A stretch of 64,000 nucleotides of DNA from Exiguobacterium acetylicum (GTDB lineage Bacteria; Bacillota; Bacilli; Exiguobacteriales; Exiguobacteriaceae), in the NCBI RefSeq assembly GCF_022170825.1, contig NZ_CP081878.1:2568001-2632000 (forward strand), read 5' to 3'. The notes under the pieces were generated by a model that saw only the letters and a list, made by a program, of their open reading frames with translations, did not search any database and had not been told where the DNA came from. The translations under genes were made by a program, and so were the position numbers. Of this stretch, positions 4,551 to 38,947 are shown piece after piece; the stretch's first letter is position 1; every line of letters starts with the position of its first letter.

Positions 4551-4598
4551 AAAAGGCGCCCTCTACGCATAGCTAACAGCTAATGCATAGAGGACGCC
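4551..4598 (-). terminator. T-box intrinsic terminator
   Basis: About 19-bp stem (GGCGTCCTCTATGCATTAGC with GCTATGCGTAGAGGGCGCC) followed by TTTTGTTG on the minus strand. It is mutually exclusive with the T-box antiterminator and lies before the peptide-binding protein gene. Confidence 0.9.
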
Positions 4599-4825
4599 TG
4601 TATCCGCGCGGTGCCACCTCTGATTGAGACGAAAAATCGTCTCCACTTGTCGCTGGTCCAACAACCAGCTAGCCCGGTAACGGGGGCAACCGTCCTGTCT
4701 ACTCGAAGGTTCAACAGGCTCTCAGCGGTCCATTCTCGTTCAGCTTACCGTGTCAGGCTCTCACCATTCCTGACTCGCTTGGTCGGCAGTGTTGACGATA
4801 CTTACTCCGCGTCGTCGATGTAATT
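4551..4825 (-). ncRNA. T-box riboswitch leader, specifier read as UGG (Trp)
   Basis: On the minus strand a full T-box can be traced. Stem I begins near 4825 with GCGG-AGTAAGTA. The opposite side reads ACGA-GAA-TGG-A-CCGC, giving the loop-E AGUA/GAA motif directly followed by UGG at 4732-4730. An apical AATGGTGAGAG loop sits between GTCAGG and CCTGAC. The antiterminator T-box GAGGTGGCACCGCGCGG is at 4604-4620 and a strong terminator at 4551-4598. The T-box residue after UGG is C, which would pair with a G discriminator base, as tRNA-Trp carries. The T-box call is near certain; the Trp assignment is an inference from helix alignment. Confidence 0.93.
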
Positions 4826-7596: not shown

Positions 7597-7614
7597 TTAA
7601 GTGATTAATCAATC

Positions 7615-7672
7615 AAAGACGTATGATTTTCTTACAGTTCCTTAGAACGGAAAAAGAAAATCATACGTCTTT
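7615..7672. terminator. Bidirectional terminator, left boundary of the AT-rich island
   Basis: Perfect 17-bp arms AAAGACGTATGATTTTC (7615-7631) and GAAAATCATACGTCTTT (7656-7672) with T-rich sequence on both strands. It serves the gene ending at 7596 and the subtilase gene ending at 7688. Confidence 0.85.
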
Positions 7673-7687
7673 TTGAGTGAAGAAAGT

Positions 7688-9916
7688 CTATTCTAATTCA
7701 ATCGTCTCATTTGCAGTTTCATAGATATCAATTCTTTCTTCCACATTGATACGGTTTACAAGCCATCCTTTTAAAGAACACCGCTGAATAAAATCATCAA
7801 TTCGGTTAACGCCGTTAATTTCTTTCAACGTCACGACTACTCCGAATCTTATTCCATCTCCGTCTCTTGCATTCAATCTTTCCTTGGTCTTTATGCTCAT
7901 TCCCCACATAGAATTACTATATACTTTTTTAGGATTGTTACGACTTTTCACTTCTTCTTTGATGTGTTTTATATTATCCCATTTCCGAAAAAGTTTACGT
8001 GCTGATTCTTCACGTAAGTAGTGACCATCTTCACCTAGACTTTGCTTATTACCATTAAGCGGCATCAACTTACCTTTATCATTTATTCTTCCAAAATATA
8101 TATCTAATTCAGTATTGGTATAGTCAACACCCTGATTTCGAGAGCATTTGGGAAAATAGCACATTGTCGCTTTTGCGATGTATGGATGTTTTCCGTTATG
8201 AATTGGTACAGGAAAATTATAATTGAACGTTTCATATTTTTCAGAAACACCTGATACGATGAACTTAATTTCATCTTCAGTTGTATTTACGATATCTTCT
8301 ATTCTAATCGGAACAACACCGTGACCTTTTAATGCCAGTTGTGAAGTCTCTGGCGTTTTTTCCCATCCAATCGAAGCATCAATTATAAGTGCTTTAGCTA
8401 CCTCTCGATTAAGTCCGACTATATCAATAAGATATGAAAGTTTACGTGCAATCCATGGTGTCGCAAATGATGTGCCGCTGACTAGAGCTTTTCCTAATGG
8501 CTCGCATACTGATATATAATCCCCTTTCGATCCTCCGTAGTAACTAACGTCTGGTTTTGTGAAAAAGGACAGCACTATACCATGTCTCGAATATGATGTT
8601 GGCACCTTTTCTCTATCTACCGAATTCACAACCATTGAATTGATAGAATCTGCCGGAGCACCAATTCGTTTACTGATATTAGTGTCTACTACGCGTTTAT
8701 TCGTACCAGCAATTACAAATATGACATCACTCTCAAATTGAATTTGATCTAATACTGCACCTTCTGCTGAAATGAAGTTCTCATTCACTTCGTCATTAGA
8801 GCCTAAAGACAAATTCCATACCTTTATATCAGGATTACTTGTAATTATTTCTTTTATTTGCCGAATGATAGTGAATGAGTTAAACGCTTTTCCTGTAGCA
8901 ACACCAAAATGCCTTACTCTAAATCTGCCACAGCCATCGTCTAAATTCGGATTTAATGTCGGTCCATCGACTATGATTGAACTAACAGCAGTTCCATGCT
9001 TATAATCACTGGGCTCAATTGGAATGTGACTATCAATCATATTATGAAACTCGACCCATTCACTAAAATAAACTCGATCATCGAATAATGTATCAATAAC
9101 TCCGATCGTCGGTTCTTCTGCTGGTAAAGGAATTGATGCAGCATCCGATTCTATATATTCTCGAAAATCAATAGGTGCTAAATCAGATATGTTTTCTGTT
9201 ACCATTGCAACTAAATAGGGAGCTTTTTGAAGTAATAAAGCTAAATCTATTTCATCCAGCAACACAGTAGTTTCGTTAATAATTCGCATATCCAAAACCT
9301 TAACACCAATTTTTTCAAGTAAGTTTTTTGTGTTGTTCTGGGTATCGTATATTGTAACAATTGATGTTTTCGCTGAATCAACCTCACTTGTTTCTACATC
9401 AAATTTCTCTACATAAAAAATATCTACTACTACACGTTGAAATTTGCTCTTTGATATTCCATAACTAGAAAAATTAACGTTTTCTAATTTGTTTAATGTT
9501 TCTTCAGAAATACTCCCATGAAACTCGTTTAGTAAAATCATTTTTGCCTTTTGAAAAACTTCAACTGCACGTTCTAAAGAAGACATCGAAATATAGTGCG
9601 TAATAATATGCTTTTTAATTCGTCCATCTGAAAATTTAGCACCGACAATCGTATCGTTGGTAGACATGTTCCCATTGGCGAAAACGCTGTTTAAGCGATT
9701 GCTTTTAGCAACAATTTTATTGTAATAAACGCTAACTAATGCTCCTTCAAATATTTCCTCCGTAGCCCAGAAACTAATTAAGCGAAGTAAGTCTTGTTTT
9801 AAGCTTTCTAGATGTGTCGCATTCACAGATGCACCTTTAGGAAGTTTTGGTGCACCCGGCCTGCTGCTATTAGCTTTCTGTTCAAACCGACCTTTCAATT
9901 CCAATATTTGATTCAT
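7688..9916 (-). CDS. Cytoplasmic subtilisin-like (S8) serine protease, partner of an AAA+ ATPase
   Basis: 742 aa with an intact subtilase triad: Asp275 (GVIDT), His307 (YKHGTAVSS) and Ser483 (SGTSFATP); Asn406 in VIAGTN is the likely oxyanion residue. There is no signal peptide and no recognisable I9 propeptide, so it should act inside the cell. The about 260-residue N-terminal region and the about 240-residue C-terminal region are of unknown fold. Its start codon is 5 nt after the stop of the ATPase gene, with the RBS (AAGGG) overlapping that stop, so the two are translationally coupled. Base composition is markedly AT-richer than the flanks, suggesting horizontal transfer. Plausible role: a regulated protease in a conflict or stress module. 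Substrate unknown. Confidence 0.88.
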   Translation of the reverse strand: MNQILELKGRFEQKANSSRPGAPKLPKGASVNATHLESLKQDLLRLISFWATEEIFEGALVSVYYNKIVAKSNRLNSVFANGNMSTNDTIVGAKFSDGRIKKHIITHYISMSSLERAVEVFQKAKMILLNEFHGSISEETLNKLENVNFSSYGISKSKFQRVVVDIFYVEKFDVETSEVDSAKTSIVTIYDTQNNTKNLLEKIGVKVLDMRIINETTVLLDEIDLALLLQKAPYLVAMVTENISDLAPIDFREYIESDAASIPLPAEEPTIGVIDTLFDDRVYFSEWVEFHNMIDSHIPIEPSDYKHGTAVSSIIVDGPTLNPNLDDGCGRFRVRHFGVATGKAFNSFTIIRQIKEIITSNPDIKVWNLSLGSNDEVNENFISAEGAVLDQIQFESDVIFVIAGTNKRVVDTNISKRIGAPADSINSMVVNSVDREKVPTSYSRHGIVLSFFTKPDVSYYGGSKGDYISVCEPLGKALVSGTSFATPWIARKLSYLIDIVGLNREVAKALIIDASIGWEKTPETSQLALKGHGVVPIRIEDIVNTTEDEIKFIVSGVSEKYETFNYNFPVPIHNGKHPYIAKATMCYFPKCSRNQGVDYTNTELDIYFGRINDKGKLMPLNGNKQSLGEDGHYLREESARKLFRKWDNIKHIKEEVKSRNNPKKVYSNSMWGMSIKTKERLNARDGDGIRFGVVVTLKEINGVNRIDDFIQRCSLKGWLVNRINVEERIDIYETANETIELE

Positions 9917-9921
9917 TTACA

Positions 9922-10962
9922 TCACCCTTCTTTCAACTCTCGTGAAACTTGGCTCTTTGAAACTCCTGTCAAAATTTCAATTTCCCTTAAAGTAAAACCT
10001 TTCGAATGAAGTTCTTGTATACTCCATGGTGTTTCACGATTAGTAATCGAACTAAGAATCCTTCTTAGATAATCGTACTCATTAGTTGGATCACTAAAGG
10101 CTAAGGCAATTTTTATTATATTTTTCAACTCACCAGGATTTGGTATCTTTTCAACACTTGATAAAATCTTTCTAAACAAGCGCATCTCTCTACTTGCTCC
10201 TTTAAATTTTTTAAGCAGTGAGTTCAATAAAACTTCAGCAATTTCTATCAAATCTTCTTTACTATAACGATCAAAATCAATTACAGAATCAAATCTTCGA
10301 ATTAATGCTTTATCAAAATTTTCAAACAGATTTGTAGTAGCAATTAATACAACTTCCTCATTCAGTTTCTCGATTTCTTTCAAAATTGTTGAAGTAACTC
10401 TTCCCATCTCTCGAACATCATTCGAATTAATTCTATCTAGAGCTATAGCATCTATTTCGTCAAAAAGAATAACTACTTTTGACGGATAAGGCATGCGATT
10501 GATTTCGTTGAATACAGTTACAACATTTTTGGAAGTCTGTCCCATTTTGCTATCAATCAATTCGCTAAACTCAACGATGTATAATGTTCGTTCAAGTAAG
10601 CGTGCTAATTGCTTTGCCGTCTCAGTTTTTCCAGTTCCAGGAGTACCTTTAAATAAAAATTTATTAATACCAACTCTATGATGAACTGCATTAATGATTC
10701 CTTTTACATCTTCTGCAATTAATTTTGGAAGCGGTAACGGTTCATTATCTAAATCAAGTTCCTTTAAAAAATGACTTTCAAAAGAATTCATTTGAGGAAC
10801 AAACGTATTAGCCGTAGATAGTTGACCCATGATATATTCAGCGAGTTGATGATCTCCAATTTGATCAAAATAACGTGCAATTTCTGTTGCCTCTTTTCTA
10901 AATTGAAGATCGTTTTTCTCAGTATGATATTTAATTAAATTTAGTATGTTTTTTTTCTTCAT
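9922..10962 (-). CDS. AAA+ ATPase with C-terminal helix-turn-helix, partner of the subtilase
   Basis: 346 aa. The N-terminal about 75 residues are helical. A complete AAA+ module follows (numbered from GTG 10971; subtract 3 for the chosen ATG): Walker A GTPGTGKT (109-116), Walker B VVILFDEID (166-174), sensor 1 ATTN (211-214) and arginine finger in IRRFD. The last about 25 residues (FTLREIEILTGVSKSQVSRE) read as a helix-turn-helix, unusual for a protein-remodelling AAA+ and suggesting DNA binding or autoregulation. The ATG at 10962 was preferred over GTG at 10971, which directly abuts GAGGGG. Operon with the subtilase; AT-rich. Tandem operator-like repeats overlap its promoter. Confidence 0.88.
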   Translation of the reverse strand: MKKKNILNLIKYHTEKNDLQFRKEATEIARYFDQIGDHQLAEYIMGQLSTANTFVPQMNSFESHFLKELDLDNEPLPLPKLIAEDVKGIINAVHHRVGINKFLFKGTPGTGKTETAKQLARLLERTLYIVEFSELIDSKMGQTSKNVVTVFNEINRMPYPSKVVILFDEIDAIALDRINSNDVREMGRVTSTILKEIEKLNEEVVLIATTNLFENFDKALIRRFDSVIDFDRYSKEDLIEIAEVLLNSLLKKFKGASREMRLFRKILSSVEKIPNPGELKNIIKIALAFSDPTNEYDYLRRILSSITNRETPWSIQELHSKGFTLREIEILTGVSKSQVSRELKEG

Positions 10963-10985
10963 TTTAATCACTTCCCCTCGAGCAT

Positions 10986-10991
10986 ATTATA
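10986..10991 (-). promoter_or_regulatory. -10 element of the AAA+/subtilase operon
   Basis: Minus-strand TATAAT, 24 nt before the ATPase start. No good -35 is seen at normal spacing. That region is occupied by the tandem repeats at 11001-11042, so the promoter may be activator-dependent or repressor-controlled. Confidence 0.5.
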
Positions 10992-11000
10992 ACACTCTTT

Positions 11001-11042
11001 GGGACAAAAATAATTATTTTGGGACAAAAAATAATTATTTTT
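11001..11042. repeat. Two tandem 20/22-bp repeats between divergent promoters, probable operator
   Basis: Unit 1 GGGACAAAAATAATTATTTT (11001-11020) and unit 2, the same with one extra A and two more Ts (11021-11042). Each contains a TAATTA palindrome core. They fill the -35 region of the ATPase promoter and end one base before the -35 of the divergent small gene (TTGACG, 11044). A site for a dimeric regulator is the natural reading; the C-terminal HTH of the ATPase is a candidate ligand. Confidence 0.65.
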
Positions 11043-11043
11043 G

Positions 11044-11072
11044 TTGACGAAACAGCTTTTAAAAAGTAAGAT
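11044..11072 (+). promoter_or_regulatory. Sigma-A promoter of the small basic-protein gene
   Basis: TTGACG (11044-11049), 17-nt spacer, TAAGAT (11067-11072), immediately next to the tandem repeats. Confidence 0.7.
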
Positions 11073-11104
11073 TTAGACATCCTAATTATTAAGAAGGTGA
11101 AACT

Positions 11105-11275
11105 ATGGCGAAAAATGGTGCTCCAGGAAAAGGTCGAGTAGGAGCTGTTAAAGGACGAAGTCAATTCAAAGCTCCTAACGGCAATTATGTAAAAAGAGAC
11201 ACAAAAACTGGTCGTTTTTTAGATCAAAAAACAAGTAGTTCATCACCGTTTAAAGGTGTTCGAAAAGAACATTAA
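11105..11275 (+). CDS. Small basic protein of the AAA+/subtilase locus
   Basis: 56-aa protein, rich in Lys, Arg and Gly, with no membrane segment. It begins MAKNGAPGKGRVGAVKGRSQ. The C-terminal half has a patterned motif (NYVKRDTKTGRFLDQK, then PFKGVRKEH) of a kind I associate with short widespread bacterial proteins of unknown function. RBS AAGGTG precedes the ATG by 6 nt and a good promoter lies upstream. It is transcribed away from the ATPase/subtilase operon across the shared operator-like repeats, so the three are probably one unit. It could be a protease substrate, adaptor, inhibitor or nucleic-acid binder; none is shown. Confidence 0.75.
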   Translation: MAKNGAPGKGRVGAVKGRSQFKAPNGNYVKRDTKTGRFLDQKTSSSSPFKGVRKEH

Positions 11276-11290
11276 TAAGTATTTCTTTGA

Positions 11291-11329
11291 AAAAGCAGGA
11301 CACCTTTTAATTAAAGGTGCCCTGCTTTT
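11291..11329. terminator. Bidirectional terminator, right boundary of the AT-rich island
   Basis: Stem AAAGCAGG-A-CACCTTT paired with AAAGGTG-C-CCTGCTTT, with T- and A-rich flanks. The stop codon of the histidine kinase gene (11307) lies inside the hairpin, so the last few kinase residues are encoded by it. Confidence 0.75.
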
Positions 11330-12602
11330 CGCGTAGAAATAGCTTTATATAAAAAACTGCTCCCCCACCACTCCGGTCTCGAACACCGTACTCGAATTGA
11401 TGACTATCAAGGATCATCCGACTGATTGCAAGACCCAGTCCATGCCCAGCACTGCCTTCTTGTTTGACGTAAACATCCCAAATCGTCGCCCGGTCTTCGG
11501 CGCGGACCCCCGCCCCTTCATCCTCAACTGTCAATTCAGTATCCGTTAAGCGAACCGTGACCGTTCCGTTAATCGGTGAAGCAAAGCGCGCGTTCATCAA
11601 GAAGTTGATCAAGACACGTTCGAACATTCGTGGATCAAGTGACTGTTTTATCGGCTTGAGATCTGTCACAAGTATAAGTCCCGCTTGCGTAAACGTGCCA
11701 CGCAGGCGTTCGACTGTCGCTGTCACTAATTCATCAACTGCCACCTCGGTGACGTCAAGCGGCATCCGCCCACCGGCAAGCTTCGAATAAAGCAACGTCT
11801 CATCAATCAGATGACCGAGTCGGTCCGTCTCCTCGATGATGCTCGTCGTCACGTCAGGCAGTTCAGCGAGCGGAATGACTCCTGCTGCGAGTGCTTCGGT
11901 CTCATTTCGGATGATCGCGAGTGGCGTGCGCAAGTCATGGGTGATCCCGGCAATGAATGTCTTTTGTAAATGATCCTTCTGCTTCAGTTGTGTCTGCATC
12001 TCATCGACGGCGTCAATCAACTCTCCGACTTCATCCTTCGGTCGCGTTGGTAAGACGACGTCCGTTTCGCCGGCACCAATCTTTTGAGCAACAGAACGAA
12101 GCGTCACGATTGGTCGCGTCAGATGTCGTCCCATGTAGTAGGCAAGCAACGACGCGAGCAGTAACGTCACGAGTAACGCGAGTCCAATCGCGAGATAGAC
12201 CCCACTCAGCGCACTACTCGCCAGCGGTGCTTGGCGGACCGTCGTGATTCGCGTTTCGTCAACAGTCAGCTGATAAGTCAGTAACCGTTCGTCTTGCACT
12301 TCGATGACGTCTTCCTTCTTTAGGTTATCAAGAAACGGTAATCGTCCAGCGGGTCCGCGCGCACCAATCCGTTGCGTCAATCCGTCCGTCGTCAAAAATC
12401 CTTGGATATCAAGCGGAATCGGAGTATCGGCTTCAAGGGACTGTTTGATGATGTTCGCTTCGCGCGCGAGCTGGTCGTAGCGTTCACCTTCTGCGAATCG
12501 GTTAACGAGGAACGCCGTCAAGACGAAACTGAGAACTCCCATGACGAGTAACGGACCGACGACAGCGTATAAGAACTTACGCATCAAAGGACGTCGTTTC
12601 AT
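11307..12602 (-). CDS. Two-component sensor histidine kinase
   Basis: 431-aa membrane kinase. It has TM1 at about 9-34, an extracytoplasmic sensor of about 100 residues (35-132), TM2 at about 133-157, then HAMP, HisKA with the phosphorylated His222 (AGITHDLRTPLAI), and HATPase with N-box INFLMNARF, DEGAGV and GHGLGLAIS. Its ATG overlaps the regulator's stop (ATGA), so the pair is co-translated. The signal is unknown. A divergent secreted protein gene with regulator-type repeats in its promoter is the likely target. The C-terminal tail runs into the island terminator hairpin but the catalytic domain is complete. Confidence 0.93.
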   Translation of the reverse strand: MKRRPLMRKFLYAVVGPLLVMGVLSFVLTAFLVNRFAEGERYDQLAREANIIKQSLEADTPIPLDIQGFLTTDGLTQRIGARGPAGRLPFLDNLKKEDVIEVQDERLLTYQLTVDETRITTVRQAPLASSALSGVYLAIGLALLVTLLLASLLAYYMGRHLTRPIVTLRSVAQKIGAGETDVVLPTRPKDEVGELIDAVDEMQTQLKQKDHLQKTFIAGITHDLRTPLAIIRNETEALAAGVIPLAELPDVTTSIIEETDRLGHLIDETLLYSKLAGGRMPLDVTEVAVDELVTATVERLRGTFTQAGLILVTDLKPIKQSLDPRMFERVLINFLMNARFASPINGTVTVRLTDTELTVEDEGAGVRAEDRATIWDVYVKQEGSAGHGLGLAISRMILDSHQFEYGVRDRSGGGAVFYIKLFLREKQGTFN

Positions 12603-36769: not shown

Positions 36770-37169
36770 ACATGAAGATTGGTACTTCAGCTGCTGGATC
36801 ATATGTATAGATACCGCGTCCGACTTTTTTAATGGCAGGGTTTGCCTGTTCGACTTTTGCCATCAGTTGGTAGATGTTACTAATTTGATGACGGTAACGC
36901 AGTTCGAGCTCCATTTGAATGTCTCGTGCTGTCATTGATTCACGCTCTCGCATTAAATCACTGATTTGATGTACGTAGACTTCTAGTGGATAACGCTGAT
37001 TGACGCGACGTTGTTTTAACGGACGCTCATGTGTGACGGCGATTTCTTGCGAATGTTCTCCCGTTCCACGACTTAGTTCCGAGATTAAATACTCGGCACG
37101 ACGCTGCAAGCGACGGTATTCCTCTTCGATTTCCATTAGTTCGCGGTAGATATGTTCACTGTTACCCAT
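36768..37169 (-). CDS. Rok-like DNA-binding protein (putative)
   Basis: 133 aa. The N-terminal about 40 residues form a charged coiled coil (EEEYRRLQRRAEYLISELSR), followed by a basic linker and a C-terminal winged-helix-like region (MTARDIQMELELRYRHQISN, YQLMAKVEQANPAIKKVGRG, IYTYDP). This plan, coiled coil then linker then wHTH ending in 'G.Y', resembles B. subtilis Rok, an AT-binding nucleoid repressor of competence and acquired genes. The resemblance is by layout and a few residues only. RBS AAGGAAAG weak. AT-rich upstream DNA. Confidence 0.7.
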   Translation of the reverse strand: MGNSEHIYRELMEIEEEYRRLQRRAEYLISELSRGTGEHSQEIAVTHERPLKQRRVNQRYPLEVYVHQISDLMRERESMTARDIQMELELRYRHQISNIYQLMAKVEQANPAIKKVGRGIYTYDPAAEVPIFM

Positions 37170-37462
37170 TCCTTGCCCCTCTTTCCTTTTTTATACATTA
37201 ATGTTTCAATCATGTTTCATTTGTATGTATTTTGAAATATTTTAAACTATAATTTGTCTTGATAATATATAATTTCTTTAATTATTTAATTATCCTGTAA
37301 TATTTTCATATCCTTACCGATAAATTGGCTACACCTCATATTAACAGAAAGGAGTGAAAACGGAACATATAATTTCGACATTTAACTATTTTAATAATAC
37401 TTAAGTTCTACTAATCCAATATATATCTTTCTTATTTTACCGAAAAGGAGACTGGAAATTTA
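37170..37462. other. AT-rich intergenic region
   Basis: About 290 nt, much more AT-rich than its surroundings, between the divergent Rok-like and amidase genes. Several TATAAT-like runs are present but none has a clean -35 partner. No RNA gene or convincing hairpin was seen. Confidence 0.6.
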
Positions 37463-38947
37463 ATGGGCAAATTACCTAAAACACTTCGGACCGCTCTAGT
37501 ACTTTCGTTGGTATCCGGTTGCTTCGCCTCTACTTCTACTGTATCGGCTGCTTCTGGGACAACCTTTACGAAAACTTCGTATCAGACGACAGATGCCTTG
37601 AATCTACGCAGTTCGAACTCGACGTCTTCTAAAAAATTGCTGACGATCCCGAAGACGACGAAAGTCACGTCAAGCTATCGTAAAGGCACGTGGTATAAGC
37701 TGTCTTATAAAGGAAAGACGGGGTATGTGACCGGGTCGTACCTGAAGAAGATCGAGAGCGGTACGTCCTTTACGAAGACGTCTTACAAGACGACGGATGC
37801 TCTATCCTTGCGCAGTGCAGCAACGACGTCTTCTACACGATTGTTGACGATCCCAAAAGGTGCAGGCGTACAATCCAGTTTTAAAACTGGAAGTTGGTAT
37901 AAAGTGACCTATGCGAATAAGACGGGATATGTGTCTGGTTCTTATCTAAAGAAAGTGACCGCCCCAGCAAAAACGACGGTCTATACGACGACGGATCGCT
38001 TGAATTTCCGTACTTCTCCTTCAACGTCCGGAAAAGTACTGACGACGATTCCGAGCGGGACTGCCGTCCATTCGCTCGCCGTTAAATCGAATTGGCACAC
38101 GGTCCAGTACCAAGGAAAAACGGGTTATGTCATGGGAACGTATCTCAAGAAGGGCACTTCCGTACCTGCCTCGACGACTGGAAACGTCGATTATAGTGGT
38201 TCGAAGATGTATGTGTTGATCCCGTCAGGTAGCAGCGTTGCGCTCCGTGCGAGTGCATCGACGCTCAGTGGTCAAGTAGCTCGTCTTGGACGCGGTACAC
38301 CGGTTGCTGTCACGAATTCACGCCATCAAACGAAAGGCTTCGTCGCCGTTCGCACGGCAAGTGGTCAGAGCGGTTATGTCGACGCAACATATCTAACGTT
38401 GTTCCAACCGGCACCATCGAATCGCCCATTACTCGTCCTCGACCCAGGTCATGGTGGATACGATGCGGGTGCAGTTCGTTACGGCGTCGCTGAACGTGAC
38501 ATCGTCCTTGCGGTGACGAAACAAGTCGCTGAGCGGCTTGCTGGCAAAGTCGATGTGACGATGTCTCGCTATACGAACGACTATTATCCGTCACTTGGAG
38601 AACGGAGTGCCCTAGCGAACAGTCATGCGACGACTGCGTTCGTCAGTGTCCATATTAATGCTTCAACGAGTACACAAGCATATGGAGCAGAGACCTTCTA
38701 TTATAAAGGAGCTTCTTCGATCAACCTCGCTCGTAACGTTCAGCAACGTCTCGTCTCATACGCTGGCATGCGCGACCGGAACGTTCACTATGCGAACTAT
38801 GCTGTCATTCGTGGTACAAAAGCACCGTCGATCTTAGCGGAACTCGGGTTCCTCTCAAACAGCGCGGATCGTGCGAAACTCACGAACGCGACGTATCAGT
38901 CACGCTACGCGCAAGCAATCGCGGACGGGATTCTCGCTTCACTTTAA
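37463..38947 (+). CDS. N-acetylmuramoyl-L-alanine amidase with SH3b repeats
   Basis: 494-aa secreted cell-wall hydrolase. Signal peptide (about 1-31, VSAA cleavage region), three bacterial SH3 domains (about 35-95, 103-165, 172-230; each 'TTDALNLRSS..', '..GTWYKL', 'GKTGYV.GSYLKK'), a fourth weaker SH3b (about 245-310), then Amidase_3 (about 320-494). Zinc ligands are visible: His in LVLDPGHGGYD, Glu in VAERDI, His in SVHINAS; the catalytic Glu is in LAELGFLSN. Cuts the amide between MurNAc and the stem peptide. In B. anthracis SecA2/SlaP export S-layer proteins and a murein hydrolase, so this enzyme 1 kb from secA2 is a possible client. Confidence 0.93.
   Translation: MGKLPKTLRTALVLSLVSGCFASTSTVSAASGTTFTKTSYQTTDALNLRSSNSTSSKKLLTIPKTTKVTSSYRKGTWYKLSYKGKTGYVTGSYLKKIESGTSFTKTSYKTTDALSLRSAATTSSTRLLTIPKGAGVQSSFKTGSWYKVTYANKTGYVSGSYLKKVTAPAKTTVYTTTDRLNFRTSPSTSGKVLTTIPSGTAVHSLAVKSNWHTVQYQGKTGYVMGTYLKKGTSVPASTTGNVDYSGSKMYVLIPSGSSVALRASASTLSGQVARLGRGTPVAVTNSRHQTKGFVAVRTASGQSGYVDATYLTLFQPAPSNRPLLVLDPGHGGYDAGAVRYGVAERDIVLAVTKQVAERLAGKVDVTMSRYTNDYYPSLGERSALANSHATTAFVSVHINASTSTQAYGAETFYYKGASSINLARNVQQRLVSYAGMRDRNVHYANYAVIRGTKAPSILAELGFLSNSADRAKLTNATYQSRYAQAIADGILASL

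Follow-up and report, generated by a model that had tools for sequence, protein, structure and literature searches.

The window analyzed here, a stretch of 64,000 nucleotides of Exiguobacterium acetylicum DNA, contains an AT-rich island in which the genes for an AAA+ ATPase (9922..10962, minus strand) and a subtilase (7688..9916, minus strand) lie beside a divergent gene for a 56-aa basic protein (11105..11275, plus strand), all three open reading frames being confirmed at the places claimed for them. The locus raises the question of whether these genes form one mobile three-component module of a conflict system without a name, as the original prediction proposed, or whether the pair and its small neighbor are to be understood separately.

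The three genes have a GC content of 0.32–0.37 and a GC3 of 0.12–0.27, compared with 0.46–0.48 and about 0.54 in the flanks, in line with the predicted AT-richness relative to both sides. The predicted strong bidirectional terminators were also found, at the left end (7615..7672; z = -6.1 and -7.8 for the two strands) and at the right end (11291..11329; z = -6.1 and -8.3), and both fold far better than shuffled sequences on either strand (z -6 to -8). The alignment of the flanks with the closest relatives ends at 7597 and resumes at 11350, with approximately 70–270 bp between these points in the relatives, and thus the island (7598..11349) replaces a short intergenic terminator region. Neither the subtilase gene nor the 56-aa gene was found in the 18 other genomes of the genus (18/18), and the left-flank gene is kept in all of them (18/18). 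This gene directly faces the two-component kinase gene in nearly all 18, one genome showing no kinase match in the short stretch compared and one showing a partial match, and each of the eight empty sites that were read carries one ordinary bidirectional terminator between the left gene and the kinase gene. The absence of the subtilase and 56-aa genes, together with the empty site in the genus relatives, suggests that the island segment was, most simply, acquired by the E. acetylicum lineage. None of its three genes encodes an integrase, no replicon was recognized in the island, and no tRNA gene was found in the 64,000-nt window.

The ATPase and subtilase genes lie 5 bp apart on the same strand. 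Their products match the PADLOC profiles IetA (3.1e-42, full-length) and IetS (4e-60), as well as AAA (4.9e-27) and Peptidase_S8 (4.9e-29), respectively, placing IetA-type and IetS-type neighbors in one operon. In PHROGs, both proteins fall into families of unknown function, with scores much stronger than those in PADLOC. The scores against the NCBIfam IteA and IteS equivalogs (NF042959 and NF042956) were 113.8 against a cut-off of 510 and 147.3 against 900, respectively; since they lie far below the cut-offs, the pair is assigned to an IetAS-like clade and not to the equivalog itself. Judged by its profile matches, the pair is a Gram-positive clade of IetAS in the broad PADLOC sense, and hence an already known kind of ATPase–subtilase pair, not an unnamed system. 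The statement that no validated system can be named is therefore to be withdrawn in favor of IetAS/SgiAT, while the empty site and the match to a named system bear out the prediction of an acquired NTPase–protease pair of a conflict system.

In the close relatives that were read, ietA lies directly upstream of ietS, on viral contigs, plasmids, or chromosomes, and relatives of the pair are present on Carnobacterium and Macrococcus plasmids. In the sampled genomes from which the loci were taken, close relatives of the clade are rare (3 of 399 Bacilli genomes, including that of the window), and IetS in the PADLOC sense was found in 32 of 398 Bacillota genomes. A few of the clade loci have type I restriction genes as neighbors, a few have phage terminase or portal genes, and a few have recombinases; a Mycoplasma relative adjoins a restriction-like locus with genes for DNA methyltransferase and helicase. 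For sgiAT, the published account describes a toxin–antitoxin system, in which the subtilase is the toxin and the AAA ATPase is the antitoxin, with a role in the maintenance of a genomic island (PMC5006074). NCBI and PADLOC, as library annotation, class the family as anti-phage, and according to a 2023 survey the defense mechanism of IetAS awaits description (PMC9958689). In the predicted division of labor, the ATPase senses or remodels and the subtilase executes; by analogy with the published genetics of relatives, the ATPase would instead be the antitoxin of a toxic protease and not just a sensor.

For IetS (742 aa), the catalytic triad (Asp275, His307, and Ser483) and the oxyanion residue (Asn406) are intact, and no hydrophobic N-terminal segment was found in the first 60 residues, where the best 19-residue Kyte-Doolittle mean is 0.64. 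These results agree with the predicted subtilase that retains Asp/His/Ser and has no signal peptide, and suggest a cytoplasmic S8 enzyme. For IetA (346 aa; an alternative GTG start at 10971 is possible), the Walker A and Walker B motifs, at 106 and 165, respectively, are both intact. In the AlphaFold2 model (overall pLDDT 84.7), residues 315–345 form the helices of a C-terminal helix-turn-helix (HTH) with a pLDDT of about 90, which, together with a sub-threshold HTH_38 profile match, supports the HTH predicted there. We read the modeled helices as an N-terminal helical region, an AAA+ core with its lid, and the HTH; the nearest neighbors in both fold and sequence are the proteasomal, Cdc48, and PAN ATPases. 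The HTH is kept in nearly all of the aligned relatives, and distant relatives, among them the annotated Acidovorax IteA, have HTH-like C-termini too, with weak profile scores, suggesting that the HTH is probably a feature of the IetA family. Some of the most distant ATPases that neighbor a subtilase gene have no HTH.

The promoter region of ietA contains a conserved pair of direct repeats. Upstream of the putative -10 element (TATAAT, 10986..10991, minus strand), whose equivalent position is conserved in relatives, candidate operator box 2 (TTTTTGTCCC, 11001..11010, minus strand) lies in the putative -35/-10 spacer, and box 1 (TTTTTGTCCC, 11021..11030, minus strand) lies 20 bp further upstream; both are conserved in the clade. 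Of the clade loci whose upstream DNA could be read, 16 of 16 carry two GTCCC boxes at the ietA promoter, spaced 20–21 bp apart; one of these loci has GTCCT as the second box. The pair was first noticed in three loci and then in further ones, and the counts treat related loci as independent. As a test, eight loci with previously unread upstream DNA were taken from eight other genomes, and every one of them has the two boxes, with a spacing of 20 or 21 bp. The repeat score at this spacing is markedly high (z 14.2, compared with dinucleotide shuffles), and 12 of the 14 occurrences of GTCCC-N15-GTCCC in the DNA gathered by then were at ietA, 7 of these 12 being distinct and several being repeat copies of one locus. 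The longer form, TTGTCCC-N13-TTGTCCC, occurs once in the genome of the window and in none of the 18 genus relatives. One exact pair in another genome (G052), between genes read from their ORFs as acetyl-CoA carboxylase-like and phosphofructokinase-like, was taken as chance. The palindrome TTTTGNNNCAAAA was dropped as an operator in favor of the direct repeats, because the relatives conserve only GTCCC.

For a distant IetA clade (33–39% identical to the queries used), other boxes, TAACG or TAACA, were found with the same 21-bp phasing. One locus (L227) carries four copies at -102, -81, -60, and -39, and three others (L228, L229, and L232) carry two or more boxes each; over five loci the phasing gives z 4.4, not every locus of the group having an array and the start codons of the distant ietA genes being uncertain. 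A test of this second clade on more genomes added just one locus, which has one TAACG box, and in a scan of repeat spacings in distant ietA promoters 21 bp scored highest of those tried, which is only suggestive. Within the open-access literature searched, the conserved operator pair and its phasing are new.

Because IetA ends in a modeled HTH and the boxes lie at its own promoter, the most straightforward interpretation is autorepression, in which IetA would bind the two boxes, two helical turns apart, and repress its own operon. The different boxes with 21-bp phasing in the distant clade count for this reading, as does the Mycoplasma relative, in which the HTH is degenerate and the GTCCC boxes were not found. 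Conversely, two Macrococcus relatives count against it, since GTCCC was not found there although the HTH is kept; one of them has a different 20-bp repeat. The regulator of the boxes could instead be another host factor, although the clade loci span many genera.

Taking these results together, we propose, with moderate confidence, that the island carries an acquired ietAS operon in which IetA is both the antitoxin of a toxic IetS and an autorepressor acting through the two GTCCC boxes, and that a trigger frees IetS. The roles of toxin and antitoxin are carried over from the published relatives, whereas the family membership, the empty site, the ietA–ietS linkage, the operator pair, and the modeled HTH come from the present analysis. 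IetS, as a cytoplasmic subtilase, would be harmful to the cell when free, and IetA, as an AAA+ antitoxin, would restrain it. At the same time, the C-terminal HTH of IetA may bind the two direct boxes and thereby repress the ietA promoter. An invader, either a phage or an incoming replicon, might then engage or deplete IetA, so that the boxes would be vacated and the operon induced, and the released IetS could end the infection by cleaving proteins. Our inferences here concern IetA as the factor that binds the boxes, as well as the trigger, substrates, and outcome.

Two other readings of the pair need to be weighed against this proposal. IetA and IetS might act together as an ATP-dependent protease, in which a phage protein, once recognized and unfolded by IetA, is passed on to IetS and degraded directly, with no toxin being released and with the boxes bound by another factor or only tuning expression. 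The likeness of the AAA core to the proteasomal, Cdc48, and PAN unfoldases favors such a machine, as does the constant adjacency of ietA and ietS in the relatives read. The published relation is the reverse, however, since the sgiAT account describes a subtilase that is toxic alone and relieved by its ATPase (PMC5006074), and no additional gene for a regulator was seen to accompany the pair; we therefore regard this reading as rather unlikely. The pair might also be mainly a toxin–antitoxin module for the maintenance of mobile DNA, left over on the chromosome, with phage defense a side effect or absent. A part in maintaining a genomic island is published for sgiAT (PMC5006074), and the relatives on Carnobacterium and Macrococcus plasmids would suit such a role, but the lack of a recognized integrase or replicon in the island and the anti-phage classification by NCBI and PADLOC make it improbable as the main role. 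Maintenance and defense are not mutually exclusive.

The 56-aa protein (pI 11.2) matches the PDC-S38 and phrog_12550 families over its full length (1.1e-24 and 1.9e-25, respectively), its residues 1–55 aligning with 1–56 of the 57 positions of the PDC-S38 profile. Its structural model (pLDDT 80) shows three strands forming a small sheet, the core of which is confidently predicted, and a PDB fold search with this model gave nothing at E <= 0.001; weak sequence matches to actinohivin and a designed trefoil cover only 16–25 residues and are not believed. Many bacterial groups have homologues about 50–84% identical, carried by chromosomes, plasmids, and prophages; the family is conserved across phyla, with invariant residues spread along the chain.

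Among the 80 best-scoring genomic loci of the family, which are not a random sample, 45 have a DNA-damage-type regulator of an immune operon nearby, of one of three kinds: a divergent WYL protein (CapW-like) in 16, M78/XRE proteins of the CapP/CapH kind in 16 (both genes in 7), and a kinase and winged-HTH pair (CapK+CapS-like) in 13, the last assigned by domain type, size, and order against the published description and not by direct protein comparison. Another 23 share a carB/lepA-type neighborhood, mostly in Rhodobacterales, and the other 12 fit none of these classes; a CBASS cyclase lies within about 5 kb in 15 of these 80. On viral contigs, an S24/XRE (CI-type) gene or a small M78 gene was close by in 50 of 78 loci, many near-identical prophages being included, and a Bacillus relative adjoins HTH, M78, and JetD genes. 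LexA-type boxes upstream of the homologues were essentially absent (one match in about 170 loci). No paper naming PDC-S38 or its function was found in the open-access literature searched, and text searches of three papers on the CapW, CapK/CapS, and CapH/CapP regulators did not find the 56-aa protein. The recurrence of the family beside immune-operon regulators is new relative to that literature.

These neighborhoods bear on whether the 56-aa gene belongs to the module. It is divergent from ietA, with the operator boxes in the shared intergenic region, and its co-control by them would be possible, given their position immediately upstream of its putative promoter (TTGACG-17-TAAGAT, 11044..11072, plus strand), which was found by a consensus scan in a region where promoter-like sites are not above shuffle expectation. 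The shared region, and the enclosure and joint arrival of the three genes between two terminators, would suit a true third component of this locus, such as an inhibitor or adaptor of IetS. However, of the predicted co-occurrence of three genes only the ietA–ietS linkage stood: the 56-aa gene was not found beside ietAS at any other related locus checked, the combination being seen only in the genome of the window, and its relatives adjoin unrelated immune regulators, CBASS, and prophage genes. A third component is thus very improbable, and the three-component module gives way to the best explanation of these neighborhoods, in which the 56-aa gene accompanies immune loci as a separate gene that moves independently.

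The window would thus join an ietAS pair that is probably autoregulated with a common companion gene of immune loci. The clade-specific operator pair or array, with its helical phasing, offers a direct and cheap entry point to the IetAS mechanism: it leads to the prediction that the antitoxin acts as repressor, and it provides a reporter with which the trigger could be sought. The 56-aa family shows strong conservation across phyla, next to immune-operon regulators of three unrelated kinds, and is unnamed in the literature searched; it is therefore a testable unknown in many immune loci. A broader scheme is offered tentatively, as possible rather than probable: IetA would serve as antitoxin and repressor on phased arrays, its removal coupling induction to toxin release, and, separately, PDC-S38 would be a widespread damage-induced component, perhaps a stand-alone effector, common to prophages and to CapW-, CapH/P-, and CapK/S-type immune operons.

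Among known systems, PDC-S38, a PADLOC candidate family without described function, is matched by the 56-aa protein over its full length. The CapW, CapK+CapS, and CapH/CapP regulators resemble the proposed control in that they are repressors encoded next to immune operons and have their operators at the promoters of these operons, and they are frequent neighbors of the 56-aa family elsewhere, but none is present in the island, where the candidate regulator is the ATPase itself. The pair shares with IetAS/IteAS the position of an S8 subtilase gene immediately after an AAA+ gene, the full-length PADLOC IetA match, and the catalytic residues, whereas it falls far below the NCBI equivalog cut-offs and forms a Gram-positive clade with its own GTCCC operator. 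The pairing of a toxic subtilase with an AAA antitoxin in a single operon would be common to it, to sgiAT from Salmonella genomic island 1, and to ietAS from pTiC58; the sgiAT promoter, however, showed no activity under the published conditions, and the available part of that account describes no autoregulation (PMC5006074). The closest parallel in control is type II toxin–antitoxin autoregulation, which the locus would resemble in an antitoxin with a DNA-binding domain, as modeled and aligned here, and in conserved operators over its own promoter, and from which it would differ in that the antitoxin is an AAA+ ATPase and the operators, as putative IetA sites, are phased direct repeats.

The closest homologue of the 56-aa basic protein gene that lies divergent from ietA in the window is the copy in the Peribacillus locus L011 (84%), where a 388-aa protein with a RelA/SpoT domain (L011:10376-11542) is encoded convergently to it. 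On two small elements, a 5.1-kb Klebsiella plasmid (L007) and an E. coli locus adjoining tRNA-Sec (L117), the 56-aa gene is faced back to back by a gene for a WYL regulator, directly behind which no immune effector was recognised in either of them. In many Rhodobacterales genomes (loci within L014-L063), the family gene is adjoined by carB and/or lepA, and in this order it gives the impression of a stably maintained gene of the chromosome.

Elsewhere in the window, the sole Rfam match was a T-box leader at 4587-4824 on the minus strand, which scored above the gathering score. A second GC dip was observed at 37001-38000 (GC 0.41), adjoined by a 494-aa ORF (37463-38947) whose product, judged by eye, looks like an SH3-repeat amidase.

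In the Macrococcus plasmid L095, GTCCC was absent upstream of ietA, and TTTTTCATTA occurred twice, 20 bp apart, approximately 100 and 80 bp ahead of the start codon; a 20-bp repeat of this type was not clearly visible in the Macrococcus canis relative (L221). Ahead of a distant ietA on an Enterococcus plasmid (L223), one GGGACA and one TGTCCC were found, which are inverted rather than direct. Upstream of the distant ietA genes of L227, L228, L229, and L232, TAACG/TAACA boxes were arranged in tandem, exactly 21 bp apart, with four copies between -102 and -39 in L227. These distant genes share the phasing of the predicted operator in the window's ietA clade, whereas the box sequence differs.
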